Shown in pieces: positions 14,786-46,571 of a stretch of DNA of 64,000 bases; position 1 is the first letter of the stretch, and every line of letters starts with the position of its first letter. Source of the stretch: Candidatus Desulfofervidus auxilii (GTDB lineage: Bacteria > Desulfobacterota > Desulfofervidia > Desulfofervidales > Desulfofervidaceae); assembly GCA_030262725.1 (NCBI GenBank), contig JAJSZS010000004.1, forward strand, positions 60,639-124,638. The letters run 5' to 3'. Both the position numbers and the translations under genes were made by a program. The notes under the pieces are model-generated. The model had not been told where the DNA came from and searched no databases. It saw only the letters and a program-made list of their open reading frames with translations.

Positions 14786-17110
14786 ATGCCTGAAGAAATA
14801 TCTATTCCAAAAGAAATATCAATTTTACCTTCTCGTGATATGGTTTTATTTCCTAAAATGATGGTTCCTTTTGTTATTACTGATTCAAATTTAATTAAGC
14901 TTGTAGATGATGTCCTTGTTAGTAATAAAATTATTGGTATTGTTACTATGAAAAAAGATGAGGAATCAAAAAAACCTCCAGAAAATCTTTATCAAATAGG
15001 ATGTGCAGCTCAAATATTAAAGATGTCAAAGGTACCAGATGTGGGAGTACGTTTAATGGTGCAGGGTTTAGCCCGTATACGCATTATGGAATATATTCAA
15101 ATAGAACCATATCTTAGAGCAACAGTTTCTCCACATTATGATGTGTTTGAAAAGGATGTAGAGATAGATGCATTAATTACCAATATTCGTGGACTTTTTC
15201 GAAAAGTAGTAGAACTTTCTCCCTATTTGCCTTCAGAATTAAGTATTATGGCTATGAATGTAGAAGACCCTGGAATGCTTGCAGATATGGTAGCTTCTAC
15301 TCTCAATATCTCTAAAGAAGACAAACAAAAGGTACTTGAGAGCTTTGATGTAAAAGAACGCATGAGAGAAGTTGTACGCTTTCTTAATCGTGAAATTGAA
15401 GTTTTAGAACTAGCAAATAAGATTCAGGCACAAGTAAAGGAAGATATGGATAAAGCCCAGCGGGAATATTTTTTACGACAGCAATTAAAGGCTATTATGA
15501 AAGAACTAGGAGAAAAAGATGAACGTGAAGCAGAAATAGAAGAATTAAGAGCAAAAATTAAAGAAAAAAATTTACCAGAAGCTGCAGCAAAAGAGGCAGA
15601 AAGAGAATTGAATCGTTTGGCACGTATGAATCCAGCTTCACCTGAATATGTAGTTGCAAGAACATACTTAGATTGGATTTTAGAATTACCTTGGAATGAA
15701 AGCACTCAAGACAATATTGATATCGCTATAGCTAGAAAAATTCTTGATGAAGACCATTATAATTTAGAAAAAGTTAAAAAAAGAATGTTAGAATATTTGG
15801 CAGTTAGAAAACTCAAACCAGATGCAAAAGGTTCTATCCTTTGTTTTGTAGGCCCACCAGGTACAGGCAAAACTTCTCTTGGCAAATCTATTGCTAGAGC
15901 ATTGGGAAGAAAGTTTGTACGTGTGTCGTTAGGAGGAATAAGAGATGAAGCTGAAATCAGAGGACATCGCCGAACCTATGTTGGTGCCATGCCAGGAAAG
16001 ATCATTCAAGGTCTTAAAAAAGCAGGTTCAAATAATCCTGTTTTTATGCTTGATGAAATTGATAAATTGGGAGCAGATTTTAGAGGTGACCCTTCCGCGG
16101 CACTTTTAGAAGTACTTGATCCAGAACAAAATTATGCGTTTGTTGACCATTATCTTGGTGTTGAATTTGATTTATCAAAGGTGATGTTTATTTGCACAGC
16201 CAATATTTTAGACACTATTCCAGGACCATTACGTGATAGGATGGAAATTCTTGAGTTGCCAGGTTATACAGTTCAAGAAAAAGTACAAATTGCTGAAAAA
16301 TATCTTATCCCTAGACAACTTGACGCACATGGTCTTAATGAAAATCATTTAAAATTTGATCCTAAAGCTATTGAAAAAATCATACTTAATTACACGCGAG
16401 AAGCTGGTTTAAGAAATCTAGAAAGACAAATAGCAGCTATCTGTCGCCAAGTAGCTGTTGAAGTGGCAGAAGGGAAAAAACAATCAGAATTTATTACTCC
16501 TGAAAATGTTAGCAATTTTTTAGGTCCTCCAAAATTCTATCGAGAAGTGGCTGAAAGAACAGTTGAGCCTGGCGTAGCAACAGGACTTGCCTGGACACCC
16601 ACTGGTGGTGAAATTATGTTTGTAGAAGCAACCAAGATGCGAGGAAAAAAGTCATTAACCCTTACTGGTTCATTAGGTGAAGTAATGAAAGAATCAGCAG
16701 AAACTGCTTTAAGTTATGTACGATCAAAAGCTGCTCATTTTGGTATACCTGAAGATTTTTATGAAAATAATGATATTCATATCCATGTTCCTGCAGGTGC
16801 TATTCCAAAAGATGGGCCTTCAGCTGGCATTACTATTTGTACAGCTTTAGTCTCTTTATTAACAGAAAAACCAGTAAGAAATGACTTGGCTATGACTGGT
16901 GAAATTACTCTTAGAGGTCTTGTTTTACCTGTTGGTGGAATTAAAGAAAAAGTGCTTGCTGCACATTTAGCTGGTATAAAATATGTTGCATTACCAAAAA
17001 AGAATAAAAATGATTTAGAAGAGGTGCCAAAAGAGGTGAAAGAAAGTATAAAATTTTTATTTATAGAAAAAGTAGAAGAAATTGTGGATTTTGCTTTAAA
17101 GGAAAAATAA
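14786..17110 (+). CDS. lon: ATP-dependent protease Lon
   Basis: Lon is a homohexameric AAA+ serine protease that degrades misfolded and regulatory proteins in the cytoplasm. The 774-residue protein has the N-terminal substrate domain (starting ILPSRDMVLFPKMMVPF), a coiled-coil region, Walker A GPPGTGKT at 356-363, and Walker B VFMLDEIDKL. The C-terminal protease domain has catalytic Ser679 in PKDGPSAG and Lys722 in GGIKEKVLAAH. Length is that of bacterial LonA. It follows the Hsp20 gene by three bases and is followed at once by a PHP-domain gene. Identity is certain. Confidence 0.98.
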   Translation: MPEEISIPKEISILPSRDMVLFPKMMVPFVITDSNLIKLVDDVLVSNKIIGIVTMKKDEESKKPPENLYQIGCAAQILKMSKVPDVGVRLMVQGLARIRIMEYIQIEPYLRATVSPHYDVFEKDVEIDALITNIRGLFRKVVELSPYLPSELSIMAMNVEDPGMLADMVASTLNISKEDKQKVLESFDVKERMREVVRFLNREIEVLELANKIQAQVKEDMDKAQREYFLRQQLKAIMKELGEKDEREAEIEELRAKIKEKNLPEAAAKEAERELNRLARMNPASPEYVVARTYLDWILELPWNESTQDNIDIAIARKILDEDHYNLEKVKKRMLEYLAVRKLKPDAKGSILCFVGPPGTGKTSLGKSIARALGRKFVRVSLGGIRDEAEIRGHRRTYVGAMPGKIIQGLKKAGSNNPVFMLDEIDKLGADFRGDPSAALLEVLDPEQNYAFVDHYLGVEFDLSKVMFICTANILDTIPGPLRDRMEILELPGYTVQEKVQIAEKYLIPRQLDAHGLNENHLKFDPKAIEKIILNYTREAGLRNLERQIAAICRQVAVEVAEGKKQSEFITPENVSNFLGPPKFYREVAERTVEPGVATGLAWTPTGGEIMFVEATKMRGKKSLTLTGSLGEVMKESAETALSYVRSKAAHFGIPEDFYENNDIHIHVPAGAIPKDGPSAGITICTALVSLLTEKPVRNDLAMTGEITLRGLVLPVGGIKEKVLAAHLAGIKYVALPKKNKNDLEEVPKEVKESIKFLFIEKVEEIVDFALKEK

Positions 17111-22956: not shown

Positions 22957-23168
22957 CCTTCTACTTCTATTTTCTCTACTTTTTTCTTTTCCTTTTTTTG
23001 TAATTCAGCAATACGTTCATCAATCAAAGACTTAAAAGCTTCAAGCACCTCAATCCTTGCCTTTCGTAAATGTTCAAAAAATTTTTCATATTTTTTTTGT
23101 TTTGCTGAAAGACATTTTATAAAAAAACAAATAGGACAAAAAACCTCCTCTCTTTCCTTTTCACTCAT
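22953..23168 (-). CDS. small conserved-looking helical protein with CPICFFIKC
   Basis: This 71-residue protein has a cysteine cluster near the N-terminus (CPICFFIKC, residues 11-19), followed by a long charged helix rich in Lys and Glu (FFEHLRKARIEVLEAFK, then ERIAELQKKEKKK). The cysteines could bind zinc or be redox-active. It overlaps both neighbours, ArsA by eight bases and the methyltransferase by four, and this translational coupling supports a real gene. It may be an accessory factor of the ArsA ATPase; that is inference. I do not recognise the family. Confidence 0.6.
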   Translation of the reverse strand: MSEKEREEVFCPICFFIKCLSAKQKKYEKFFEHLRKARIEVLEAFKSLIDERIAELQKKEKKKVEKIEVEG

Positions 23169-24354
23169 TTTCTCCTCCTTTGAAAGTAATTGTTAAAACT
23201 TTACCTTCAATTTTTGCTTTTTCTGGTTGAGAGAGGACAAAGGAACGAGGTAATAAAATATGCTTTTTAAAACTTCCTATTCTTACAATAAGTTCGTCAC
23301 TACTTTTAGTCAATTCAATCTCATCTTTAGTAACAAAAGGTAAATAGAGTCGTAATAAATATTGGCCATTTTCTTTTAAAAAATCATATGGTTTTTGTTG
23401 ATAAAGTACAGCTATAGGATCCTTATCTTTATAAATTTTATCTGCAAGTTGAGAAAGTTTTTCATATCCAACAATTTCTTCAGAAGAAAAAGGAACATAA
23501 AAAAGTGGAATAGGAGAAAAATAATCTTGTGCTAATTTAATATATTCTTTTTGCCATTCTCGCCTAAAAGAAAGAAATGGTTCTTGAATCTCTTCTGGAA
23601 TAACACGATTGATAATAATAGCATCTGTACAAATATGATAAAGATTAAAATAAAGGTATGCTCTTTGTGTTTCTTTTAAAACCATACGTTCTGGATTAGT
23701 TACAAGTCTTACTGTAGTAATTTCAGGATTAGTTAAAAGCCGATCAACACCTTCAAGACGTTGAAATAACGATTCAATAGTATCAAAGTAAGCTTCTTCA
23801 GGTAATGGAACATCACTAAAACGTTTGGCAAATGGTCTCATATATCGAATGACTCTTCTCTCCACTTTAAAAATCTTTTTCATATACCATTCAAGAGCAG
23901 TTGGAATGCTAACAAAACGGATAGATTCTCCTGTTGGAGCACAATCAAGAATAATTACATTATAAGTATTATTTCGATAATAACGATTTAAATATAATAA
24001 AGAACTAACTTCTTCCATACCTGGAAGAATAGCTAGTTCTTCAGCTAATACTTCCTCAAAACCAGATATGTTTAAAAGCACAGAGAGATATTTATGTATT
24101 TCCCCCCAATGCTTTTTTAACTCTTCTTGAACATCCAATTCTTGAATATAAAGATTTTCAGAAACCTTAACAGGCTTACCTTTATTTCTATCCATAAGAC
24201 CACGTTCAAGATCAAATGCATCACTTAGACTATGAGCAGGATCAAGAGACATAATAAGTGTACGTTGTCCCTTTTGAGCAGATTTAATCCCTGTTGCTGC
24301 TGCTAAAGTAGTTTTACCTACACCTCCCTTTCCTGCAAAAAGAATGACACGCAT
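23161..24354 (-). CDS. ArsA/Get3-family ATPase with C-terminal HSP20-like domain
   Basis: This 397-residue protein starts with the deviant Walker A AGKGGVGKTTLAAATG (signature lysine K9, P-loop K14). It continues with SLDPAHSLSDAFD and LDCAPTGESIRF, matching the ArsA/Get3 ATPase fold. The last 75 residues (YLRLYLPFVTKDEIEL to GKVLTITFKG) look like the HSP20-like domain appended to bacterial ArsA homologues. It is half the size of the double-domain arsenite pump ATPase and no arsB or arsR lies nearby, so arsenic export is unlikely. A chaperone or targeting role for membrane or metal-cofactor proteins is plausible but unproven. Confidence 0.82.
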   Translation of the reverse strand: MRVILFAGKGGVGKTTLAAATGIKSAQKGQRTLIMSLDPAHSLSDAFDLERGLMDRNKGKPVKVSENLYIQELDVQEELKKHWGEIHKYLSVLLNISGFEEVLAEELAILPGMEEVSSLLYLNRYYRNNTYNVIILDCAPTGESIRFVSIPTALEWYMKKIFKVERRVIRYMRPFAKRFSDVPLPEEAYFDTIESLFQRLEGVDRLLTNPEITTVRLVTNPERMVLKETQRAYLYFNLYHICTDAIIINRVIPEEIQEPFLSFRREWQKEYIKLAQDYFSPIPLFYVPFSSEEIVGYEKLSQLADKIYKDKDPIAVLYQQKPYDFLKENGQYLLRLYLPFVTKDEIELTKSSDELIVRIGSFKKHILLPRSFVLSQPEKAKIEGKVLTITFKGGENE

Positions 24355-26596: not shown

Positions 26597-27523
26597 ATGA
26601 AGGTTATTAATTCTTTAGAAGAGATTAAAAAACCTTTCTCAAAAGCAGTTATTACTATAGGCAATTTTGATGGTGTCCATCTTGGACATCAGAGTTTATT
26701 TCAAAAAGTTAAAGAGCGAGCTAAAATTATAAAAGGTACTTCTATTGTTATTACTTTTGACCCACATCCAGTAAAAGTCATTACTGGAAAACATATACCT
26801 TTAATCACCCCTTTACCACGTAAATTAGAGCTTATTGCTGCTCAAGGTATAGAAGTAACCATTTGTTTACCTTTTACAAAAGAATTTTCTCAAATTTCAG
26901 CAGAAGAATTTGTAAAAGAAATTCTAATTAAAAAAATTGGAATGAAAGAGATAGTTATTGGTTATAATTATACATTTGGTCGAAAAAGAGAAGGGAATGT
27001 TGAACTCTTAAAAATCTTAGGAGAAAAATTAGGATTTAAAGTACATGTAATAGAACCAGTAATGATTAATGGGCAAATAGTAAGCAGTAGTTTAGTAAGA
27101 GAATTAATTACCGCTGGAAAAGTAGATAAAGTAAAGGATTTTCTCAGTCGTTATTATCAAGTAGTAGGAAAAGTAATTCCTGGACATGGTCGAGGTGGCC
27201 GTTTACTTGGCATTCCTACAGCTAATCTTGCCCTTATAAACGAAGTTTTTCCAAAACCAGGTGTTTATGCAGTAGAAGTAATTTATCAAAAAAATCGTTA
27301 TCAAGGTGTAGCTAATATTGGTTTTAATCCTACCTTTGGCAATAATACCCTTTCAGTAGAAACGCACATCCTTGATTTTAATGAAAATATTTATGACAAA
27401 ACTATTAAATTAAACTTTATAAAACGTTTACGCGATGAGAAAAAATTTAAAAGTATACAGGATTTGGCTGATCAAATTAAAAAAGATATTGAAGTTGCTA
27501 GGGAAATATTGCCTCCTGTTTAG
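26597..27523 (+). CDS. ribF: bifunctional riboflavin kinase/FAD synthetase
   Basis: RibF phosphorylates riboflavin to FMN and adenylates FMN to FAD. The 308-residue protein has the N-terminal nucleotidyltransferase domain (ITIGNFDGVHLGHQSLFQK, ITFDPHPVKV, GYNYTFGRKREG) and the C-terminal kinase domain (GRVIPGHGRGGRLLGIPTANL equivalent, GVANIGFNPTFGNN, KLNFIKRLRDEKKF). Length is normal. There is no FMN riboswitch in the short upstream region. The gene is divergent from tRNA-Leu, and its 3' end overlaps the start region of the MEMO1-AMMECR1 gene. Confidence 0.95.
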   Translation: MKVINSLEEIKKPFSKAVITIGNFDGVHLGHQSLFQKVKERAKIIKGTSIVITFDPHPVKVITGKHIPLITPLPRKLELIAAQGIEVTICLPFTKEFSQISAEEFVKEILIKKIGMKEIVIGYNYTFGRKREGNVELLKILGEKLGFKVHVIEPVMINGQIVSSSLVRELITAGKVDKVKDFLSRYYQVVGKVIPGHGRGGRLLGIPTANLALINEVFPKPGVYAVEVIYQKNRYQGVANIGFNPTFGNNTLSVETHILDFNENIYDKTIKLNFIKRLRDEKKFKSIQDLADQIKKDIEVAREILPPV

Positions 27524-28955
27524 TTTTTTCATACCTCATATATGTGAGGCAATAACACGCCCTCCTGCTGTTGCTGGAAGGTGGTATCCAGCAGATAAAA
27601 ATTCTTTAAAAAAAGAAATTAAATCTTTTTTAAAAAATGTTAATTTGCCTCCTTTACCAGAAAAAATTAATGCATTAATAGTCCCTCATGCTGGTTATAT
27701 ATTTTCTGGCCAAACAGCAGCTTATGCTTATAAGGCAATTGTAGGAAAACATTATAAATGGATAGTTATTTTTGCCCCTTCTCATTATGCTCGTTTTTAT
27801 GGTGCCTCTACTTTTGATGTAGAAGCTTATGAAACCCCTTTAGGAAAAGTTTTTGTGGACAGAAAAATAGTAAAGGCTCTTTTAAAAGAACCAATTTTTA
27901 ATGAATATGTTGTAGCTCATTTAAGAGAACATGCTATAGAAGCACAATTACCATTTTTGCAAATGGTTTTAAAAGAATTCAAATTAATACCAATTTTAAT
28001 TGGAAATATAAATAAAAAAGACTTAAAAGAAATGGCAAAAATTATTAAAAAAGTTTTTGATAATAAAATAAAAGACACTCTTTTTATTGCTAGCTCTGAT
28101 TTTACTCATTTTGGCCCTACTTATGGTTATATGCCTTTTAAAGAAAAGATTCCTGAAAATATAAAAAAATTAGATATGGATGCCATTAAATTTATTCTTA
28201 AAACAGATCCAGAAGGATTTTTAAATTATGTTAAAGAAAAAAAAGCTACTATTTGTGGTATTTATCCCATTGCCTTAACTCTTTGGCTTCTTCCTAAAAA
28301 GGCAAAAGGTTATCTTTTACACTATACAACTTCAGGAAAAATTATTGGTGATTACACTAATTCAGTAAGTTATGCTGCTATTATTTTAGATGAAAATTTT
28401 TCTCTAACAAAAGAAGAGAAAAAAGCACTTTTAAAATTAGCTAGATTTACTTTGGCATATTATTTTGAACATAATAAGCTTCCTGATTTTTCAAAAATTC
28501 CTATAAAATTAACACCAGCTTTAAAAGAAAAAAAAGGGGCTTTTGTAACTTTAAAAAAACATGGAAAATTAAGGGGATGCATTGGTTTTATAATGCCTTT
28601 GTTCCCTCTTTATGAAGCTGTGATGCAAGCTAGCCTTCGTGCAGCTTTTAATGATCCTAGATTTTTCCCTTTAGATAAAAGTGAATTATCTCAAATAAAA
28701 ATAGAAATCTCTGTTTTAGGTCCAATCATTCCAGTTAAAAAGACTGAAGAAATAAAGATTGGTCGTGATGGTCTTATTGTTAAAATGGGCAATTATCAAG
28801 GATTACTTTTACCTCAAGTAGCAACAGAGTTAAATCTAAATAGAATCCAATTTTTAGAACTTACCTGCCGCAAAGCTGGACTCCCTCCTTGGGCTTGGAA
28901 AGATAAAGATACTCTTATTTATCGCTTTTCTGCTGAAGTATTTGGAGAAAATTAG
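27489..28955 (+). CDS. MEMO1-AMMECR1 fusion protein (AmmeMemoRadiSam system B+A)
   Basis: This protein joins two AmmeMemoRadiSam components. Residues about 20-300 form a MEMO1/dioxygenase-like domain (RPPAVAGRWYP, VPHAGYIFSGQTAAYAYK, REHAIEAQLPFLQ, SSDFTHFG, with conserved His). The last 170 residues form an AMMECR1 domain (GAFVTLKKHGKLRGCIGF, RAAFNDPRFFPL). I prefer a TTG start at 27489, which gives a signal-peptide-like MKLLGKYCLLFSFFIPHICEA; an ATG at 27435 would overlap ribF by 89 bases. Export is thus suggested but not certain. The third, radical-SAM partner is not adjacent. It converges with the MerR-TPR gene, sharing stop bases. Confidence 0.85.
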   Translation: MKLLGKYCLLFSFFIPHICEAITRPPAVAGRWYPADKNSLKKEIKSFLKNVNLPPLPEKINALIVPHAGYIFSGQTAAYAYKAIVGKHYKWIVIFAPSHYARFYGASTFDVEAYETPLGKVFVDRKIVKALLKEPIFNEYVVAHLREHAIEAQLPFLQMVLKEFKLIPILIGNINKKDLKEMAKIIKKVFDNKIKDTLFIASSDFTHFGPTYGYMPFKEKIPENIKKLDMDAIKFILKTDPEGFLNYVKEKKATICGIYPIALTLWLLPKKAKGYLLHYTTSGKIIGDYTNSVSYAAIILDENFSLTKEEKKALLKLARFTLAYYFEHNKLPDFSKIPIKLTPALKEKKGAFVTLKKHGKLRGCIGFIMPLFPLYEAVMQASLRAAFNDPRFFPLDKSELSQIKIEISVLGPIIPVKKTEEIKIGRDGLIVKMGNYQGLLLPQVATELNLNRIQFLELTCRKAGLPPWAWKDKDTLIYRFSAEVFGEN

Positions 28956-29788
28956 TTATCTTCTAAACGTTGGCGAGCATATTCTGCCCACTCACTATCA
29001 GGATCAAGCTCTAAATAAATGCGCCAACATTTTTTTGCCTCTTTTAATTCTCCTTTTTTCTCTAAAAGACGGGCGAGATTAAAATAGGCATCAGCAAATT
29101 CAGGATCTTCATAAATAGCTTTTTGATAAAATAAAATGGCATTTTTTATATCTCCCTTTTCTTCAAGAAGATTGGCCAAATTATAATTTGCTTCAGGATG
29201 ATTAGGATTTAATGAAAGTGCTTTTCGATAATAATTTTCTGCTTCATCAAGAATACCAAATTGATACTGAATATTTCCAAGATTTACTAAAGCATTTATA
29301 TGATTAGGATCAGAAGAAAGAATTCTTAAATAATATTCCTTTGCTCTCTCCAACTGACCTTCTTCCTCGTATTGAAGGGCTTGAAAAAACCACTCTTCTA
29401 TCACATTTACAGGAAAATGAATAATTTCTGATTTGGAGTGAAAAAAGTCTAAGAGTAATTGTCCATTTGGATCAATCTTTAAACCTTTTCTATCAAAAAT
29501 AATCTTTTTCCCTACAATTGAGACCTTCATCTCTGCTAAAGGATATTTAATTTCTGGCATAAGTTTTTTAAAGCGTTCAAGAGAATCTCTTATCTTTCTC
29601 AAAGAAACACCTTTTTCTTGCAACTCTTTTATTGTTTTAAAGGCAACTAAAGCTTTAAAATCAAAATAAACTTTCCCTTTTTCCTTTTTTATATATGGAA
29701 TAAGACCTTTCCTTTCCCAATAGCGAATTTGGCTTTCAGATATCCCTAATAATTTTGCTATTTCTTTTTGATCAAAAAGAAAACGCAT
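28952..29788 (-). CDS. MerR-type HTH regulator with TPR repeats
   Basis: This 278-residue protein has an N-terminal MerR winged helix (QKEIAKLLGISESQIRYWERKGLIP, then YFDFKALVAFKTIKELQEKG) and a C-terminal array of three to four TPR units (NHINALVNLGNIQYQFG, HPEANYNLANLLEEKG, FADAYFNLARLLEKKG). The MerR effector cysteines are absent; instead the TPR rod would bind a protein partner. It overlaps the 3' end of the ligase gene by 17 bases and is the last gene of the run that includes Ku and the MoxR/VWA pair, so it may regulate that operon. It ends with a TTAG shared with the convergent gene. Confidence 0.8.
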   Translation of the reverse strand: MRFLFDQKEIAKLLGISESQIRYWERKGLIPYIKKEKGKVYFDFKALVAFKTIKELQEKGVSLRKIRDSLERFKKLMPEIKYPLAEMKVSIVGKKIIFDRKGLKIDPNGQLLLDFFHSKSEIIHFPVNVIEEWFFQALQYEEEGQLERAKEYYLRILSSDPNHINALVNLGNIQYQFGILDEAENYYRKALSLNPNHPEANYNLANLLEEKGDIKNAILFYQKAIYEDPEFADAYFNLARLLEKKGELKEAKKCWRIYLELDPDSEWAEYARQRLEDN

Positions 29789-30695
29789 TTTTAATTAATT
29801 TTAAAAATACTGGACTTCTAAAACAACCTTTTTTTGTTATTTCTTGAAAAATCACCTCACATTTTAAAATTGGTTTTACCCAATGGACATTCTTAAAAGG
29901 TGATTTAACAACACCTTTTTTTGTCTCTATCTTTTTTAATAATGTTAAAAGCAAACTCAATTCCTCTTCTGTAAAGCCAGTCCCTACCTTTCCCCGATAT
30001 TTCCATTTCCCTTCTTCTTGTGTGGCTAAGACAAGGGCTCCTATAAAGCCTTTTCTTTCCCCTTTGCCCTCAGTATAACCAACGATATAACAAATAGCTG
30101 AATGCTTTGGTTTTATTTTCAACCAATAACGGGATCTTTTTCCTATAATGTAAGGACTATCTTTTGCTTTAGCCATTATACCTTCAAGACCTTGCTCTAA
30201 CACTTTTTTAAAAAAGGTAATTCCCTTTTCTTCTATATAACGAGATTCAACTAAATATTCTGATTCTTCAAGAATTTGTTTTAACAATTCTTTTCTTTTT
30301 ATAAGTGGCATTTCTACATAACTTTTGTCGTTTAAAAATAAAAGGTCAAAAGCAATATAAGTGGCAGGCAAATCTCTAGAAAGCAATGTTATTTTTATGG
30401 AATTGGTAGCATGCTCTCTCTGTTGTAATAAATTAAAATCTGGTTTCCCATCTCTTAATATCACTATTTCACCATCAAGAATGGCATTTTTAGCTTTAAT
30501 ACATTTAACAATTTGCTTTAATTCAGGATATCTATCAGTAATATCCATTAGACGCCGATTTTGAAGATAAATTTTTCCTTCTTTTAAAAATAAAATACAT
30601 CTTGTCCCATCCCATTTAATTTCAAATATATGCCTTTTTGAATCAAATGGTTCAGAAGAATATGCTAGCATAGGAGAAATTTTTTCATTAAGCAT
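29772..30695 (-). CDS. ATP-dependent DNA ligase (LigD-ligase-domain type)
   Basis: This 307-residue protein contains only the adenylation and OB parts of an ATP-dependent ligase. The catalytic lysine motif is FEIKWDGTRCILF. ILDGEIVIL, FDLLFLN, EGIMAKAKDSPYIIGKRSRYWLKIKP and EVIFQEIT follow as the usual motifs III-VI. It lacks the polymerase and nuclease domains found in full LigD. It directly abuts the Ku gene (no gap), the standard pairing for bacterial non-homologous end joining of DNA breaks. A start with TTG-free ATG at 30695 is fine. No separate LigD polymerase is in the window. Confidence 0.92.
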   Translation of the reverse strand: MLNEKISPMLAYSSEPFDSKRHIFEIKWDGTRCILFLKEGKIYLQNRRLMDITDRYPELKQIVKCIKAKNAILDGEIVILRDGKPDFNLLQQREHATNSIKITLLSRDLPATYIAFDLLFLNDKSYVEMPLIKRKELLKQILEESEYLVESRYIEEKGITFFKKVLEQGLEGIMAKAKDSPYIIGKRSRYWLKIKPKHSAICYIVGYTEGKGERKGFIGALVLATQEEGKWKYRGKVGTGFTEEELSLLLTLLKKIETKKGVVKSPFKNVHWVKPILKCEVIFQEITKKGCFRSPVFLKLIKNAFSF

Positions 30696-31541
30696 TTAAG
30701 CCTTTTTTCTCACTTTTTTAGCTTTAGTCTTTTTCCCAGCTACAGCCATCTTCTTCTTTGGCACTTCAGCCACTTCTTCAATGCTTCTTTGCAAAGCATC
30801 CATAAGACTAATAACTTTCTCCTTTTCTACTTTAGGTGAAACTTTTATCTCCTCACCCTCAGCCTTAGCTTTAATAATAGCCATAAGGGTCTCTGTATAT
30901 TCATCACGATATTTTTCAGGCTCAAAATTGCCACTTAAATTATCTATAAGTATCTTGGCCATATTGAGTGCCTTTTGATCTATTTGAATCTTTTTTATTT
31001 TTTCTATATCTTCTATTTCTTTTAAATTTTTAATTTCTTGATGATAATAAAGAGTAAAGGCTATCATAGTGCCATTATAGGGTTTTAGAGCTAGCAAATA
31101 TTCTCTATTCCTCATAACAATTTTAGCTAATGCTGCTTTTTTTGTCTCTATCATTGCTTGATGAAAAAGGGCAAATGCCTCAAAACCTGCCTCTCCATCT
31201 GGAGCTAGATAATGTGAATTAGAATAATAAATAGGATGTATTTCACTATCATCAACAAATTGGATAATTTCAATAAAATCAGTTGATTCTCTTTTTGCCT
31301 TCTCAATGTCTTCATCAGTGACAATAATATATCGGTCTTTTCCATATGGATAACCTTTCACTATTTCTTCAGGACTAAGCCGTTTACCACACTTTGAACA
31401 AACTTTCTCTAATTTGACTTTTCCCAAACAATCTTTATGCAATAAATTGAAATGAATGGATTTTTGACTTATGGCATGATACATTTTAATAGGAATAAGT
31501 ACAAGACCACATTTTAAATGACCTTTCCAAACAGCCTTCAT
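30696..31541 (-). CDS. ku: Ku protein (bacterial non-homologous end joining)
   Basis: Bacterial Ku forms a homodimeric ring on DNA ends and recruits an ATP-dependent ligase. The 281-residue protein begins MKAVWKGHLKCGLVLIPIKMY and has the Ku core (FNLLHKDC, CSKCGKRLSPEEIVKGY, YYLAPDG equivalent, ALAKIVMRNREYL). A Lys-rich C-terminal tail (KKKMAVAGKKTKAKKVRKK) is of the type known to aid DNA binding. A KCSKC-type pair, VCSKCG, could hold zinc. An AAGGAG site precedes the ATG, only 21 bases after the GXGXG gene, so it seems to belong to the MoxR/VWA operon. Confidence 0.95.
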   Translation of the reverse strand: MKAVWKGHLKCGLVLIPIKMYHAISQKSIHFNLLHKDCLGKVKLEKVCSKCGKRLSPEEIVKGYPYGKDRYIIVTDEDIEKAKRESTDFIEIIQFVDDSEIHPIYYSNSHYLAPDGEAGFEAFALFHQAMIETKKAALAKIVMRNREYLLALKPYNGTMIAFTLYYHQEIKNLKEIEDIEKIKKIQIDQKALNMAKILIDNLSGNFEPEKYRDEYTETLMAIIKAKAEGEEIKVSPKVEKEKVISLMDALQRSIEEVAEVPKKKMAVAGKKTKAKKVRKKA

Positions 31542-31562
31542 GTTTTTCTCCTTAAAATATTT

Positions 31563-32363
31563 TTAAATTTTTACCCAATCATTTTTCCATTGATAAACTT
31601 TACCACCATAGCGATCAGCTGTAATAGACTTTATCTCCCCTTTTATCCAAATATGTCCTCCTTGCATCTCCTCACCTACCCAAAAACCAGCATTTCCTTC
31701 TACAAAAATTTCTCCTCCTTTCATCCTCATACCTAAAGTATCTCTTACATCACCATAAATCTCTATTCTTCCACCCCTCATCCCCTGCCCTACCCAGCTT
31801 CCTGCATTACCATGAACAATAATAAGTCCATCTTTCATCCAACGTCCTAAATAACCACCCACATTACCAAAAACCTCTATTTTCCCTCCTTCCATTTCCA
31901 CACCGAGATAATAAGGCAAATGTCCATCTTGCAAAGTTAATATACCTTTACTGTGACGATAACCTAGACCAGAAACAGTACCATAATGGGTAAGATCAAG
32001 ATAAAGATGCGTATCATAGCGCATAACATAATGACAAAGACCAGCTATAAAACAGCCTAATAAACCACCCCCAACATACTTTGGCAATATTTGGTGAAAA
32101 AACATATCTAATTCTTCAAGATGAATATCATAGTCTATAGCACACCTTTTGGCAAAAATAAAAATATTCTCAATATGTTTGGCTACTTCCCAAGCTTTTA
32201 ACCCTTTCACAAAATTCACATATTCTTTTGCCATTTCATCCAATTTATCATAACTAGATTTTATTGCCCTTTCATAATAAGCTCTTCTTTTTTCTTTAAG
32301 TAAATCTCTTTTTAAGTTAAGAATATTGGGATTTTTTTCAAGTAATTTCTTTATCCCTGACAT
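31563..32363 (-). CDS. GXGXG-motif beta-helix protein (GltB-C/FwdC-like)
   Basis: I start at ATG 32363 (266 aa); an upstream TTG at 32372 is also possible. The first 130 residues are mostly helical and unfamiliar (IHLEELDMFFHQILPKYVGG). The second half is a right-handed beta-helix of GXGXG repeats: VEMEGGKIEVFGNVGGYLG, MRGGRIEIYGDV, MKGGEIFVEGNAGFWVG, MQGGHIWIKGEI. This fold closes glutamate synthase and occurs in FwdC of formylmethanofuran dehydrogenase, where it is structural. No such enzyme is encoded here. It is the third gene after the AAA+ ATPase and VWA protein, overlapping the latter, so it may be a scaffold or client of that pair. Confidence 0.75.
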   Translation of the reverse strand: MSGIKKLLEKNPNILNLKRDLLKEKRRAYYERAIKSSYDKLDEMAKEYVNFVKGLKAWEVAKHIENIFIFAKRCAIDYDIHLEELDMFFHQILPKYVGGGLLGCFIAGLCHYVMRYDTHLYLDLTHYGTVSGLGYRHSKGILTLQDGHLPYYLGVEMEGGKIEVFGNVGGYLGRWMKDGLIIVHGNAGSWVGQGMRGGRIEIYGDVRDTLGMRMKGGEIFVEGNAGFWVGEEMQGGHIWIKGEIKSITADRYGGKVYQWKNDWVKI

Positions 32364-33873
32364 AACGAGCAAAACTTTTTCCTATAGCTATGTTAGGGAT
32401 GTCTCTCTCATCTTCTATCTCAACAAATGTCACCCATGATGGCAAAGCTTGCTTAAGCATTTGATATTGGCTTTCAAAACCATAAGTTCTCCCCACATCT
32501 GTTTTGATCCAAATAATGGTAAGTCGCTGTTTTAAGTGAGAGAGTATTTTTATTAAAGAAGAAAGATTGTCTATACCTGCATCTGTAATAAGAATACAAT
32601 CTACATTTCCTACTTTATTTATATAATGTTTAAACTCTTCTATATGAAGAGTAGTACCGCCTGTTTGATGAAACTTAAGCAATTGATATACTTTGTATCT
32701 TTCCCTTGTTGGAAATAACTCTATATTTTTATCAGAAAAATTAATAACACCTACTTTAGCCCCAGCTTCAAAATAATTCCTGGCAATAGCAAATGCTGCC
32801 AAAACTGCATAAGAAAGCTCTCTATCAGGGTGTTTCATACTACCTGAAGAATCAATTACTATCACTGCATCTGGCACTTTTACTTTACATTCTCCTTCAA
32901 AATAACTCATTTCATAACGTTTTGAGATGCCAGGAAGGATCTGTCCATAGCTTTCAATAAAACTATATGTTTCAATAGGATCCTCTAAAGAGAAATCTTT
33001 TATTTCTGAAGGATAAAGAGAATCTGTCTTTTCTATGCCAGAAATATATATAGCATAACGTTGTGCTCTTATTTCATACCAAGCAGTTTCTGGTGGGATA
33101 AATGGTGATGCTTTTTCTTTTTTCCCTGGTTGAATTCCTAATCCCTTTTCTACTAAGAAAGGTTTTCCATAAACTTCTTGAGCAATTTTTTCAAATTCTC
33201 TAATATCTACTTCATTGGCAATTTCATTCATAGCCTTTTTTATTTCATGTGGACAAAAATTTTCCCAAGAAAAAAAGGAAAATGGCCATTTAATATCTTC
33301 AATTAAGTCTTCAATAATTTTTGCAAATTGTTTTATATTGTTTTTTAGACGAGCTCGTCCTGTGTCCAAAAAATCTATTTGAAAGAGGGCATCAAGTTTT
33401 TCCTTAAGTTTCTCATCTATTTTTATTTCACCAAAATAAAGACCTGTTACTTCTTGATAAAATGCACGCAAAAGATGATCTGCTTTATTTATTACAGGCA
33501 TCTCTTGATAAAGTTGAGCTATTTCTTTTAATCCTTTATTTATAATTAAATCTAAATTAGCAATGACATCATCAAAGAGATTTCTTATAATAACTTTATG
33601 TTTACGCTCACCCAGCCAATTTGTTTCTAAAATAATTGTTTTTACATCATATGGATGTTTTGCCCAGTGATTAAGTTCATGATGAAAAACACCAATAATA
33701 GCATTTTGTGAAAGGTTAGAAATAAATTCCTTTCCTAAAAGAATTTTATATTTTGATGTTTTAAAATTTACTTCACTTGTTGTTACATTAGCAATTTCAA
33801 ATTCAATAATAGGTGGATAATAAAGATCTGCCCTTGCTTTTTGAAAAAGTGGTTTTAAATAATTTTTATCCAT
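32338..33873 (-). CDS. VWA-domain protein with HExxH metallopeptidase-like N-terminus (DUF2201-like)
   Basis: This 511-residue protein joins two parts. Near the N-terminus is VFHHELNHWAKHPYD, an HExxH zinc motif (H65, E66, H69), as in putative metallopeptidases placed in front of VWA domains. In the C-terminal half is a von Willebrand A domain with an intact MIDAS, VIVIDSSGSM (D341, S343, S345), plus TGGTTLH and CILITDAG. Such proteins usually work with a MoxR-type AAA+ ATPase, and that gene lies immediately upstream (adjacent stop and start). Peptidase activity is not shown. The 3' end overlaps the GXGXG gene by 26 bases. The pair resembles RavA-ViaA in concept only. Confidence 0.82.
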   Translation of the reverse strand: MDKNYLKPLFQKARADLYYPPIIEFEIANVTTSEVNFKTSKYKILLGKEFISNLSQNAIIGVFHHELNHWAKHPYDVKTIILETNWLGERKHKVIIRNLFDDVIANLDLIINKGLKEIAQLYQEMPVINKADHLLRAFYQEVTGLYFGEIKIDEKLKEKLDALFQIDFLDTGRARLKNNIKQFAKIIEDLIEDIKWPFSFFSWENFCPHEIKKAMNEIANEVDIREFEKIAQEVYGKPFLVEKGLGIQPGKKEKASPFIPPETAWYEIRAQRYAIYISGIEKTDSLYPSEIKDFSLEDPIETYSFIESYGQILPGISKRYEMSYFEGECKVKVPDAVIVIDSSGSMKHPDRELSYAVLAAFAIARNYFEAGAKVGVINFSDKNIELFPTRERYKVYQLLKFHQTGGTTLHIEEFKHYINKVGNVDCILITDAGIDNLSSLIKILSHLKQRLTIIWIKTDVGRTYGFESQYQMLKQALPSWVTFVEIEDERDIPNIAIGKSFARYVRDKEIT

Positions 33874-35199
33874 TTAAACTCCCTGTTTCAATGCTTTAAA
33901 AAAGGGATGGTCAATGCGTTCTGCTAAATCAATAACTGTTTTTGTATCACCACTTTTTAAAGCAAGATATGCTTCTATTTGATAATCTCTATGTTCTTCC
34001 CAGCGTTTTTTTACATCTTTTATAATTTCATTAAGAGCATAAAAGGCATCACCTGTCTCTTTTTCGGTCTCTCTAACCTTTGCTATTCTTTCATCACTTA
34101 TGCTTGCCCTATGCCAAAGTACATAAGGAAAAACTGCTTGTAAGTGTTCAAGTGTAACTTCTTTTTCTCCATTTATCCAAGCCATAGCCTTTGCATAACG
34201 AAACAAACTTTGTTCTGCTCGATGAGAAATACTGTAAATATCAGCACAAATATAATTTTTATAATGACAACCACCACAACGGGAAAAATCCTTTTGTAAC
34301 CCTTTTTGACAATAAACTTCTTGCCCTAAATAATCTAAAAAAAGCTCTACATCATCAGAAACAGAAATATTTTCAATCTCTTCTCTTATCTCCTCCATTT
34401 CTTCTCTAGTAGGAATTTTAACAGAAATGCCTTCTTCTTTTAATCTTTTTTCTAATTCTTTTTTAAATTCTTCAGAAACCTTTTCAATATATTTTACTAC
34501 TTTTTCAGCCTCTTCTGTCTTATTGTGATTCAAAACAAAATCAAGCATCTTCTTTGAAAGCTCTCTATGACTTAAAACTTTATCATCAATCCCCCTACGT
34601 ACAAATCTTTTCCTTATTGGATGGAGCCTTGCTGTTTCTACTGCCAAATCAAAACGGTCAAGAAGAGGTGGAATCAAACGAGTTGTACCCAAATCCTGAT
34701 AATTTATTGTTGCAAAAAACGCCTTTTTTTCTTTAAAAATAATTGTCTCTCCTCGCCAATTCCAGATATTTCTTTCCACTTCATTAAGGAGCATACTTTG
34801 CTTTCCTACTGGCAATCTATTTATCTCATCAATAATAACTACAGGAGCAAATGGCACTACACGCCATCTCACCACTTCTTTACCTTCTTTCTGCAAAGCA
34901 GCTAAATCTAAAGTAGCTTTTATCTTTTCCTCTGTTTGCTCAGGATGGCCAGAAATAGTAGTTGCTTGAACAAACTCAAGTGGAAGCCCTTTTACAAGAC
35001 TTGAAAGTCTTTCACTAGATGTAGTCTTACCACTTCCATAACCGCCAAAAATAAGCTCTTTTCCATTTAAAATAAGGGTAATAAGACCAAAAAGTGCAAC
35101 TGGCTCATACCGCTCTTGACAGATAAGCAATTCATCACCAAAATAAAAACGATCCTTTATTGTTTCATACAAGCTCCTTACTTTTTCAAGATTTTCCAT
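33874..35199 (-). CDS. MoxR-like AAA+ ATPase with a four-cysteine insert
   Basis: This 441-residue AAA+ protein of the MoxR type shows Walker A IFGGYGSGKTTSS, Walker B VVIIDEINRL, and the LLDRFDL sensor/arginine-finger region. After a long charged helical hairpin it carries four cysteines, C297, C308, C311 and C318, in a CX10CX2CX6C pattern, fit for zinc or a [4Fe-4S] cluster and unusual for the family as I know it. It is the first gene of the run AAA+, VWA, GXGXG, Ku, ligase, MerR-TPR. MoxR/VWA pairs remodel or activate partner proteins, often inserting metals or cofactors. No ribosome site is seen; the promoter predicts a leaderless start. Confidence 0.85.
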   Translation of the reverse strand: MENLEKVRSLYETIKDRFYFGDELLICQERYEPVALFGLITLILNGKELIFGGYGSGKTTSSERLSSLVKGLPLEFVQATTISGHPEQTEEKIKATLDLAALQKEGKEVVRWRVVPFAPVVIIDEINRLPVGKQSMLLNEVERNIWNWRGETIIFKEKKAFFATINYQDLGTTRLIPPLLDRFDLAVETARLHPIRKRFVRRGIDDKVLSHRELSKKMLDFVLNHNKTEEAEKVVKYIEKVSEEFKKELEKRLKEEGISVKIPTREEMEEIREEIENISVSDDVELFLDYLGQEVYCQKGLQKDFSRCGGCHYKNYICADIYSISHRAEQSLFRYAKAMAWINGEKEVTLEHLQAVFPYVLWHRASISDERIAKVRETEKETGDAFYALNEIIKDVKKRWEEHRDYQIEAYLALKSGDTKTVIDLAERIDHPFFKALKQGV

Positions 35200-35205
35200 A
35201 AATTA

Positions 35206-35234
35206 ATCGTAACTCAAATATCATGTTTAGCCAA
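35206..35234 (-). promoter_or_regulatory. promoter of the MoxR/VWA/Ku/ligase run
   Basis: Minus-strand TTGGCT (35229-35234), 17-base spacer, TACGAT (35206-35211); both boxes match four of six. The predicted start falls on the first base of the ATG at 35199, and no Shine-Dalgarno is present. Confidence 0.45.
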
Positions 35235-45950: not shown

Positions 45951-46571
45951 CTATTCTTTATATCCAGAACAAGGGATACATAATAATTTATTATTTTTAA
46001 CCCTAATCTTACTTCCAAATACAACTTCACCACATTTTTCACAAAAAACAGGTGGGCCTTCTTGAACATAAATATATTGATATTCATAAACATCACTTAT
46101 TTTGAATATATCCTCTTCAGGTAAATTTAATACCCGATTAACTGCTGCCTCAGCAATCTCAGGTTCAATCTCTTCTGGAGGAATACCCTGTTTTCTTCTT
46201 TCCATAAAAGGAGAACTCATTGCTTGAGCAATAAATTCAGGCTTAATGGCTACCCTTACTGCTTTATTTTCTATGACATTAATTAAAACAAAAGCCATCT
46301 TATTGTAATTTAATTTTTCACAATTGCCCTTTCCATAAGTACAGCCAGTTGCCATCATTACACCATCTAAGAAACATTGCATTAAATGTCCAGTACCTGT
46401 TTCAGAAATCAATGCTAATTCTTTACTTTTCGCCCTTCCCACTCCTAATTTCCTTCTTGCTAAAAGACCTGCCCTTAATCCTAAAGGCATGGCTGGACAC
46501 AAATGTCCATGAAAATATAATCCATGTTCAAACATCTCTTTTAATTCAGGATCCTTAATATCAATAGCCAT
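45951..46571 (-). CDS. FmdE-family protein (formylmethanofuran dehydrogenase subunit E-like)
   Basis: This 206-residue protein has an N-terminal FmdE domain (LYFHGHLCPAMPLGLRAG, SETGTGHLMQCFLDGVMMATGCTYGKGN) with Cys/His residues that bind metal, and a C-terminal zinc-ribbon-like pair (VFCEKCGEVVFG and LLCIPCSGY). FmdE proteins are common in sulfate reducers that lack formylmethanofuran dehydrogenase; they may act in molybdenum or tungsten cofactor handling, but the role is not settled. An AAGGAGGT site precedes the ATG. It is a single-gene unit. Confidence 0.88.
   Translation of the reverse strand: MAIDIKDPELKEMFEHGLYFHGHLCPAMPLGLRAGLLARRKLGVGRAKSKELALISETGTGHLMQCFLDGVMMATGCTYGKGNCEKLNYNKMAFVLINVIENKAVRVAIKPEFIAQAMSSPFMERRKQGIPPEEIEPEIAEAAVNRVLNLPEEDIFKISDVYEYQYIYVQEGPPVFCEKCGEVVFGSKIRVKNNKLLCIPCSGYKE

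Follow-up and report, generated by a model that had tools for sequence, protein, structure and literature searches.

A six-gene run in Candidatus Desulfofervidus auxilii is best explained as two neighbouring modules, a MoxR-VWA-GXGXG trio and a Ku-ligase-MerR/TPR cassette

Do six tightly packed genes on one strand of the Candidatus Desulfofervidus auxilii genome make up a single DNA break-repair system, or are they two systems lying side by side? We addressed this question in a stretch of 64,000 nucleotides (assembly GCA_030262725.1, contig JAJSZS010000004.1, positions 60,639 to 124,638; hereafter the window, whose own coordinates are used throughout). Here, a MoxR-type AAA+ ATPase, a protein with a von Willebrand factor A (VWA) domain and a GXGXG beta-helix protein, together called the trio, are followed by Ku, a DNA ligase and a protein combining a MerR-type helix-turn-helix (HTH) with tetratricopeptide repeats (TPR). 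A first-pass annotation had described six genes on one strand with abutting, overlapping or 21-base junctions, and the open reading frame (ORF) map and the domain matches along the run (28952-35199) bore out both their order and their families:

33874..35199, minus strand: MoxR-type AAA+ ATPase, 441 amino acids, first gene of the trio (AAA_5, AAA_lid_2); beside VWA and GXGXG genes in two phyla
32338..33873, minus strand: VWA protein, 511 amino acids, with a helical N-terminal part, a low-confidence linker (residues 238-260) and a C-terminal VWA domain (VWA_2)
31563..32372, minus strand: GXGXG protein, 266 amino acids from the ATG at 32363, with an N-terminal helical domain and a FwdC-like beta-helix (GXGXG, PF01493)
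30696..31541, minus strand: Ku, first gene of the non-homologous end-joining (NHEJ) module (Ku; TIGR02772, Ku_bact, 284.3 bits, cut-off 150)
29772..30695, minus strand: NHEJ-type ATP-dependent DNA ligase, 307 amino acids, ligase domains only (DNA_ligase_A_M/C; TIGR02779, NHEJ_ligase_lig, 266.3 bits, cut-off 227.75)
28952..29788, minus strand: MerR-HTH and TPR protein, third gene of the NHEJ module (MerR_1, TPR)

Read 5' to 3', the junctions are 0 bp, an overlap (26 bp counted from the GXGXG ATG), 21 bp, 0 bp and an overlap of 17 bp. The explanation that we favour, with a probability of about 0.57, is that the run consists of two modules side by side: a MoxR-VWA-GXGXG trio that is likely an ATP-driven protein-remodelling chaperone, and a Ku-ligase-MerR/TPR set that is a predicted end-joining cassette. 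Both modules are found as sets in other genomes, mostly apart from one another.

The trio is a conserved unit, real and recurring. Its VWA protein was found in 16 of 99 related genomes (17 raw matches, less the spurious G039, which covered residues 325-392 at E = 5.7e-4 in a 971-residue frame), in 6 of 176 genomes of a Thermodesulfovibrio order, and in 3 of 295 genomes sampled from that phylum. The full trio stands at eight close loci in the order MoxR-VWA-GXGXG and at 19 distant loci in the order MoxR-GXGXG-VWA, with VWA identities of 27-33% at the latter. One genome (G009) holds both versions, another (G005) carries the distant trio together with a close trio split across two contigs, and Archaeoglobus homologues are present by name among the database matches. 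Three genes that recur together across two phyla make it a sound proposal that the AAA+/VWA pair works with the GXGXG protein, as the first-pass annotation had suggested. In a tree of the VWA proteins, the Thermodesulfovibrio sequence G101 grouped with Nitrospirota G333 and G398 at a support of 1.0, and its grouping with the window's sequence was not firm (0.45).

We then asked if the trio and the Ku module travel together. Ku was detected in 10 of the 99 relatives and in 43 of the 176 genomes of the Thermodesulfovibrio order (40 over cut-off), and among trio genomes 1/16 in the first cohort and 2/6 in the second carried it, which is no enrichment (Fisher p = 1.0 and 0.64). Among 395 Desulfobacterota, 33 carried a Ku matching the window's at 1e-40; six of these had the trio VWA protein, close to the background of 16/99 (p = 0.79), and the window's genome alone had both on one contig. 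Two of the genomes examined have the modules side by side: the window's, where they are in tandem, and Thermodesulfovibrio G101 (locus L005), where they are convergent on opposite strands and therefore do not form one operon. At the latter locus, the 3' ends of the GXGXG and MerR-TPR genes share 4 bp (L005:12206-12209).

The layout of the run argues no more strongly for a union. Since 34 of the 45 same-strand junctions in the window measure 21 bp or less, overlaps included (61 ORFs, after four nested inside others were removed from 65), the tight junctions of the run are not special. The one plausible promoter that had been placed ahead of the run, at 35206-35234, did not hold up: read directly, the sequence is TTGGCT-17-TACGAT, an 8/12 match to consensus, and it was absent from our minus-strand scan list, for which the threshold was 9/12. 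Promoter-like sites in the region showed no excess over chance (31 found; 26.2 ± 5.7 expected), which makes promoter scanning uninformative as operon evidence. Together, the weak 8/12 match and the region-wide tight packing give little support for a single six-gene operon.

Several observations pull against a complete separation of the two modules. They adjoin in two phyla, and among Desulfobacterota with a Ku at least 50% identical to the window's, 4 of 7 carry the trio (G000, G541, G588, G610), in comparison to 2 of 26 other Ku-bearing genomes (p = 0.011, post hoc). Without the window's genome, this excess is 3/6 versus 2/26 (p = 0.034), and G101, from the other phylum, fits the same pattern. 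In G541, G588 and G610, Ku and the trio are on separate contigs of fragmented assemblies, in which nearness is possible. The seven genomes come from four families, and shared ancestry may explain the excess, few families being involved. The modules may have come together on several occasions, or an ancient linkage may have been broken many times.

Because of this excess, we kept as a rival the idea that the six genes act together, with an AAA+/VWA/GXGXG machine loading or removing Ku-ligase complexes at DNA ends. It draws on the tight same-strand run, on the Ku-ligase-MerR/TPR genes standing directly beside the trio in a Thermodesulfovibrio of another phylum, though the VWA protein there is only ~52% identical, and on the 4/7 versus 2/26 contrast. 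It is opposed by the lack of co-occurrence in both cohorts and by L005, where the two modules are on opposite strands. In G001, a genome of the same family, an M28 peptidase gene comes after VWA-GXGXG and Ku is absent, and the window's Ku type occurs without a trio match in G048, G512 and G628 (50-54% identical; all one family), as does a ~40% identical Ku in G640. Furthermore, the three other trio genomes with this Ku type (G541, G588 and G610) carry the distant trio version, not the window's. We therefore regard joint action as distinctly unlikely. The earlier proposal of one break-repair system with Ku and ligase was not supported: trios are common without Ku, the Ku module is seen with no trio gene on the stretches examined, and the second adjoining genome has the two on opposite strands; what the gene-neighbourhood comparison leaves of it is the adjacency in two phyla and the post hoc excess by Ku type.

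Next, we examined the three trio proteins for features that bear on their function. The following lie on the minus strand within the genes listed above:

34246..34311, minus strand: Cys4 motif of the ATPase, residues 297-318, C-x10-C-x2-C-x6-C, between the AAA+ core and the lid
33667..33681, minus strand: HELNH of the VWA protein, residues 65-69, a decayed zincin-like motif
32902..33018, minus strand: two strands of the VWA protein, residues 286-293 and 318-324, around S308, G310 and P314 (model secondary structure), a candidate 'finger'
32839..32853, minus strand: core of the metal ion-dependent adhesion site (MIDAS) of the VWA protein, DSSGS, residues 341-345 (with T407 and D431)

The ATPase has the Walker A and Walker B motifs and the MoxR-type lid of an AAA+ protein (GGYGSGKT at residue 52 and VVIIDEINR at residue 120, read on the 99%-identical P0149), and the Walker A pattern is present in 58 of 62 homologues. 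All 22 aligned MoxR proteins from trio loci have the Cys4 motif, nine close ones with x10/x2/x6 spacing and 13 distant ones with x11/x3/x6, as do 62 of 62 database homologues, recovered with a search region that itself contained the motif. The motif is probably a metal or iron-sulfur (Fe-S) site, holding zinc or an Fe-S cluster. No NCBIfam model scored over its cut-off for the window's MoxR or VWA protein.

For the VWA protein, we counted conservation over 115 aligned rows, 13 of them from distant loci (P0107-P0120 and four short members of P0001-P0106 were excluded). The VWA_2 match (25.6 bits) falls slightly below its 27-bit cut-off, and the MIDAS residues D341, S343, S345, T407 and D431 are identical in 94/94 close, 8/8 intermediate and 13/13 distant homologues. 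S308 and P314 are likewise kept in all 115. The protein had been described as carrying HExxH together with a VWA domain, and both are there; the HExxH is not a conserved catalytic motif, being kept in 81/94 close, 2/8 intermediate and 0/13 distant homologues, and a metallopeptidase function was rejected on the loss of the glutamate in 13/13 distant versions. By structure comparison, the domain resembles the MIDAS domains of Rea1/Mdn1 (12% identity), which belong to an AAA+ motor, and we counted this likeness for the chaperone reading. Rea1 carries ring and MIDAS in one polypeptide, unlike the trio. VWA-domain matches filled the result lists, and no fold was assigned to the N-terminal part; a sequence-profile search of the Protein Data Bank with the VWA alignment returned nothing meaningful.

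The GXGXG protein shares its beta-helix with FwdC/FhcC and with the GXGXG domain of glutamate synthase. Its TIGR03122 (FwdC) match of 102.4 bits lies below the cut-off of 130.65 (74.8 bits for one distant version). The predicted model of the 98%-identical P0121 (mean predicted local distance difference test score, pLDDT, 90.4) had as its best Foldseek match FwdC 8rja_C (E = 2.2e-4); the profile-search matches to FwdC are partly built in, as alignment A1 contains FwdC-like rows, and the structure model was also built on A1; the FwdC likeness is accordingly drawn from the TIGR03122 and Foldseek matches. Unlike FwdC, the GXGXG protein has its own, different N-terminal helical domain, and it is encoded with MoxR and VWA genes. 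A 75%-identical homologue carries the name Ca. Desulfofervidus auxilii.

CoxD/CoxE, RavA/ViaA and CbbQ/CbbO are further MoxR AAA+/VWA pairs, and in nor, cox and cbb operons the client enzyme is encoded next to the pair. The trio most resembles a pair of this kind with a third subunit. In the sections of PMC9976466 and PMC13036017 that we drew on, a finger of the VWA protein NorD enters the pore of the AAA+ protein NorQ, client activity depends on residues of the MIDAS, and metal insertion is promoted by the complex. Like NorQ/NorD, the trio sets a MoxR-clade AAA+ gene beside one for a protein with a helical N terminus and a C-terminal VWA domain with an intact MIDAS, and by this analogy it is likely to remodel a client at the expense of ATP; the two-strand element of the VWA protein is a candidate finger by comparison with NorD. 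Unlike NorQ/NorD, the trio includes a conserved beta-helix protein as its third member, its ATPase carries a Cys4 motif, and it has no constant adjacent client gene.

In the mechanism that we propose, the MoxR protein would form a ring on which the VWA protein docks, probably via the finger between its two extra strands, while the MIDAS metal would grip an acidic residue of the client. The FwdC-like beta-helix protein would present or stabilise the client, and ATP hydrolysis would twist it open so that a metal cofactor could be inserted or repaired. The Cys4 site of the ATPase could tune the motor to the redox state. In the neighbouring module, Ku and the ligase would seal breaks, with the MerR/TPR protein perhaps regulating or scaffolding them.

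Some features of the trio loci fit this picture of a fixed three-part machine poorly. G001 has VWA-GXGXG with no MoxR gene within the 14.2-kb stretch examined, and G099 has a VWA gene with no GXGXG gene after it, on a contig that stops before any MoxR. Moreover, besides the trio itself, no cluster of genes is shared by more than 3 of the 25 compared loci, so that a constant adjacent client gene was not found and any client is probably encoded elsewhere. The annotated neighbours (n = 20) include an M28 peptidase, RNase III, RecQ, Lon, a UvrA-like protein, guanylate kinase, acyl-CoA dehydrogenase and one HSDR_N_2 protein. In G001, the M28 peptidase ORF (L028:8267-9975) starts 28 bp before the GXGXG gene ends, a junction as tight as those of the window's run. 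The distant trio of G015 (L035:840-8458) lies beside Lon and an ArsA-type ATPase, the latter 57.6% identical to the window's (23161-24354); in the window, Lon (14786-17110) and ArsA are ~7 to 14 kb from the trio.

As a first guess, we propose that the client is to be sought among tungsten and molybdenum enzymes of the aldehyde:ferredoxin oxidoreductase (AOR) family, a tentative, correlational lead against which the odds still run. AOR-family genes (AFOR_N, 1e-20) occur in 16/16 trio genomes versus 66/83 others (one-sided p = 0.037), at a median of 2.65 versus 0.91 copies per Mb by genome, and at 2.3 versus 0.77 per Mb by family (7 versus 47 families; one-sided p = 0.002). The link is weak in the second cohort (5/6 versus 86/170, p = 0.12), where G100 has the trio and is not among the AOR matches, and three trio genomes have just two AOR copies. 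The lead also emerged from four families tried (Ku, dsrA, AOR and FwdB), its counts coming from a single search of each cohort with neither a control enzyme nor full correction for phylogeny. Sulfate reduction was rejected as a partner of the trio (dsrA over cut-off in 10/16 trio genomes and 40/83 others, p = 0.41), and so was FwdB as a client, being over cut-off in 2 of the 99 genomes and in none of the 16 with the trio, among which G045 and G080 alone gave weaker matches at 1e-40. The window contains an FmdE-family gene (PF02663, 113 bits; 45951-46571), in a genome that has a FwdC-like protein but no FwdB (TIGR03129) match at 1e-40.

A bolder version of the chaperone reading would make the trio a cofactor-insertion machine of anaerobes that belongs to a class not described before. 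In it, an AAA+ ring with its own metal or Fe-S site would grip tungsten and molybdenum enzymes via a MIDAS adaptor and a FwdC-like beta-helix mimicking a natural subunit, and only in a reducing environment would it open them so that the cofactor could be loaded or repaired. We consider this version unlikely as it stands.

Could the trio instead serve in defence? MoxR-vWA ternary conflict systems, as set out in the part of PMC7159879 used here, also combine MoxR, vWA and a third conserved protein, the last being VMAP, iSTAND, FtsH or a beta-propeller, and the trio could be such a system with a new third component. Its layout matches, its distribution is patchy (6/176 in one order), and one trio neighbour (L001:2565-3083) is HSDR_N_2, the N terminus of a type I restriction R subunit. 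The third component of the trio is, however, a FwdC-like beta-helix, and no effector domain is present on the window's three proteins. A PADLOC search of the run gave HTH, TPR and weak AAA-level matches only; the VWA and GXGXG proteins match no model and MoxR does so weakly, and HSDR_N_2 is the only clear restriction-type gene of the 20 annotated neighbours. A conflict system thus seems improbable to us. We hold it very improbable that the trio builds an enzyme like formylmethanofuran dehydrogenase, in which the GXGXG protein would be the genuine C subunit: FwdC gave the best family and structural matches and the FmdE-family gene is at hand, but the GXGXG protein scores below the FwdC cut-off with a different N-terminal part, and neither genome with FwdB over cut-off has the trio.

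From its domain content, the Ku-ligase-MerR/TPR set is predicted to be a ligase-only form of NHEJ module to which a MerR/TPR protein belongs as an extra. Its genes for Ku and for the NHEJ-type ligase, both over cut-off, are adjacent, as in bacterial NHEJ with Ku and LigD (partial text of PMC7719229); unlike the conventional form in that text, in which LigD joins polymerase and phosphoesterase in one protein, the window's ligase consists of ligase domains only. It exceeds the Pfam cut-offs for PF01068, PF04679 and the related PF01331 capping-enzyme fold (30.6 versus 29.6 bits). The full order recurs in G101 (52, 58 and 50% identical), in G541 (64, 67 and 60%; the ligase match being split between two frames) and in G640 (39, 51 and 32%). 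G610 has Ku, the ligase and the start of the MerR/TPR gene at a contig end, and G095 has Ku and then a 29%-identical MerR/TPR gene. No trio genes were found on the stretches examined around Ku in G541 (4.5 kb), G640 (16 kb), G610 (8.4 kb) and G095 (13 kb). In the second cohort, the 30 Ku matches examined (L045, L047, L069-L096) had flanks of ~1.5 kb, in which MerR/TPR neighbours are undercounted. In a tree of 29 Ku sequences, those of the window, G101 and G048 fell together (support 0.99), apart from the other sampled Ku. MerR-HTH/TPR genes directly follow Ku-ligase or Ku in distant lineages (L005:12206-13045, L143:1967-2800, L151:9219-10025, L104:4971-5786), and some other Ku loci (L086, L094, L106) have a shorter TPR protein beside Ku. 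The window's MerR-TPR gene converges, with a 4-bp overlap, on a single ORF at 27435-28955 that fuses Memo (PF01875) and AMMECR1 (PF01871).

The first-pass annotation knew of no described system with the six-gene combination. For the trio, our literature search found no paper joining MoxR, von Willebrand factor and GXGXG, and none pairing MoxR with Desulfofervidus. Among the matches listed, no paper brought formylmethanofuran dehydrogenase together with MoxR or von Willebrand, and nothing was on point for Ku with TPR or MerR; in the portion of the NHEJ survey consulted (PMC7719229), the words MerR and tetratricopeptide were not found. Novelty here concerns the gene combination, and the Cys4 motif is not claimed as unreported. 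The trio is most likely a MoxR/VWA-type machine with a third subunit, a combination that we did not find described.

On present evidence, the six-gene run is real and was wrongly joined into one system; its tight packing with Ku and ligase made a repair super-operon a tempting error. The MerR/TPR protein, as a recurring companion of Ku and ligase, offers a smaller lead on the control of minimal end joining. Many of the widespread MoxR/VWA pairs have yet to be matched to a client. The trio, in anaerobes close to sulfate reducers, has a conserved third protein whose fold can be recognised and a conserved metal-type motif in its motor, and these would give a handle on how such a machine chooses its client.

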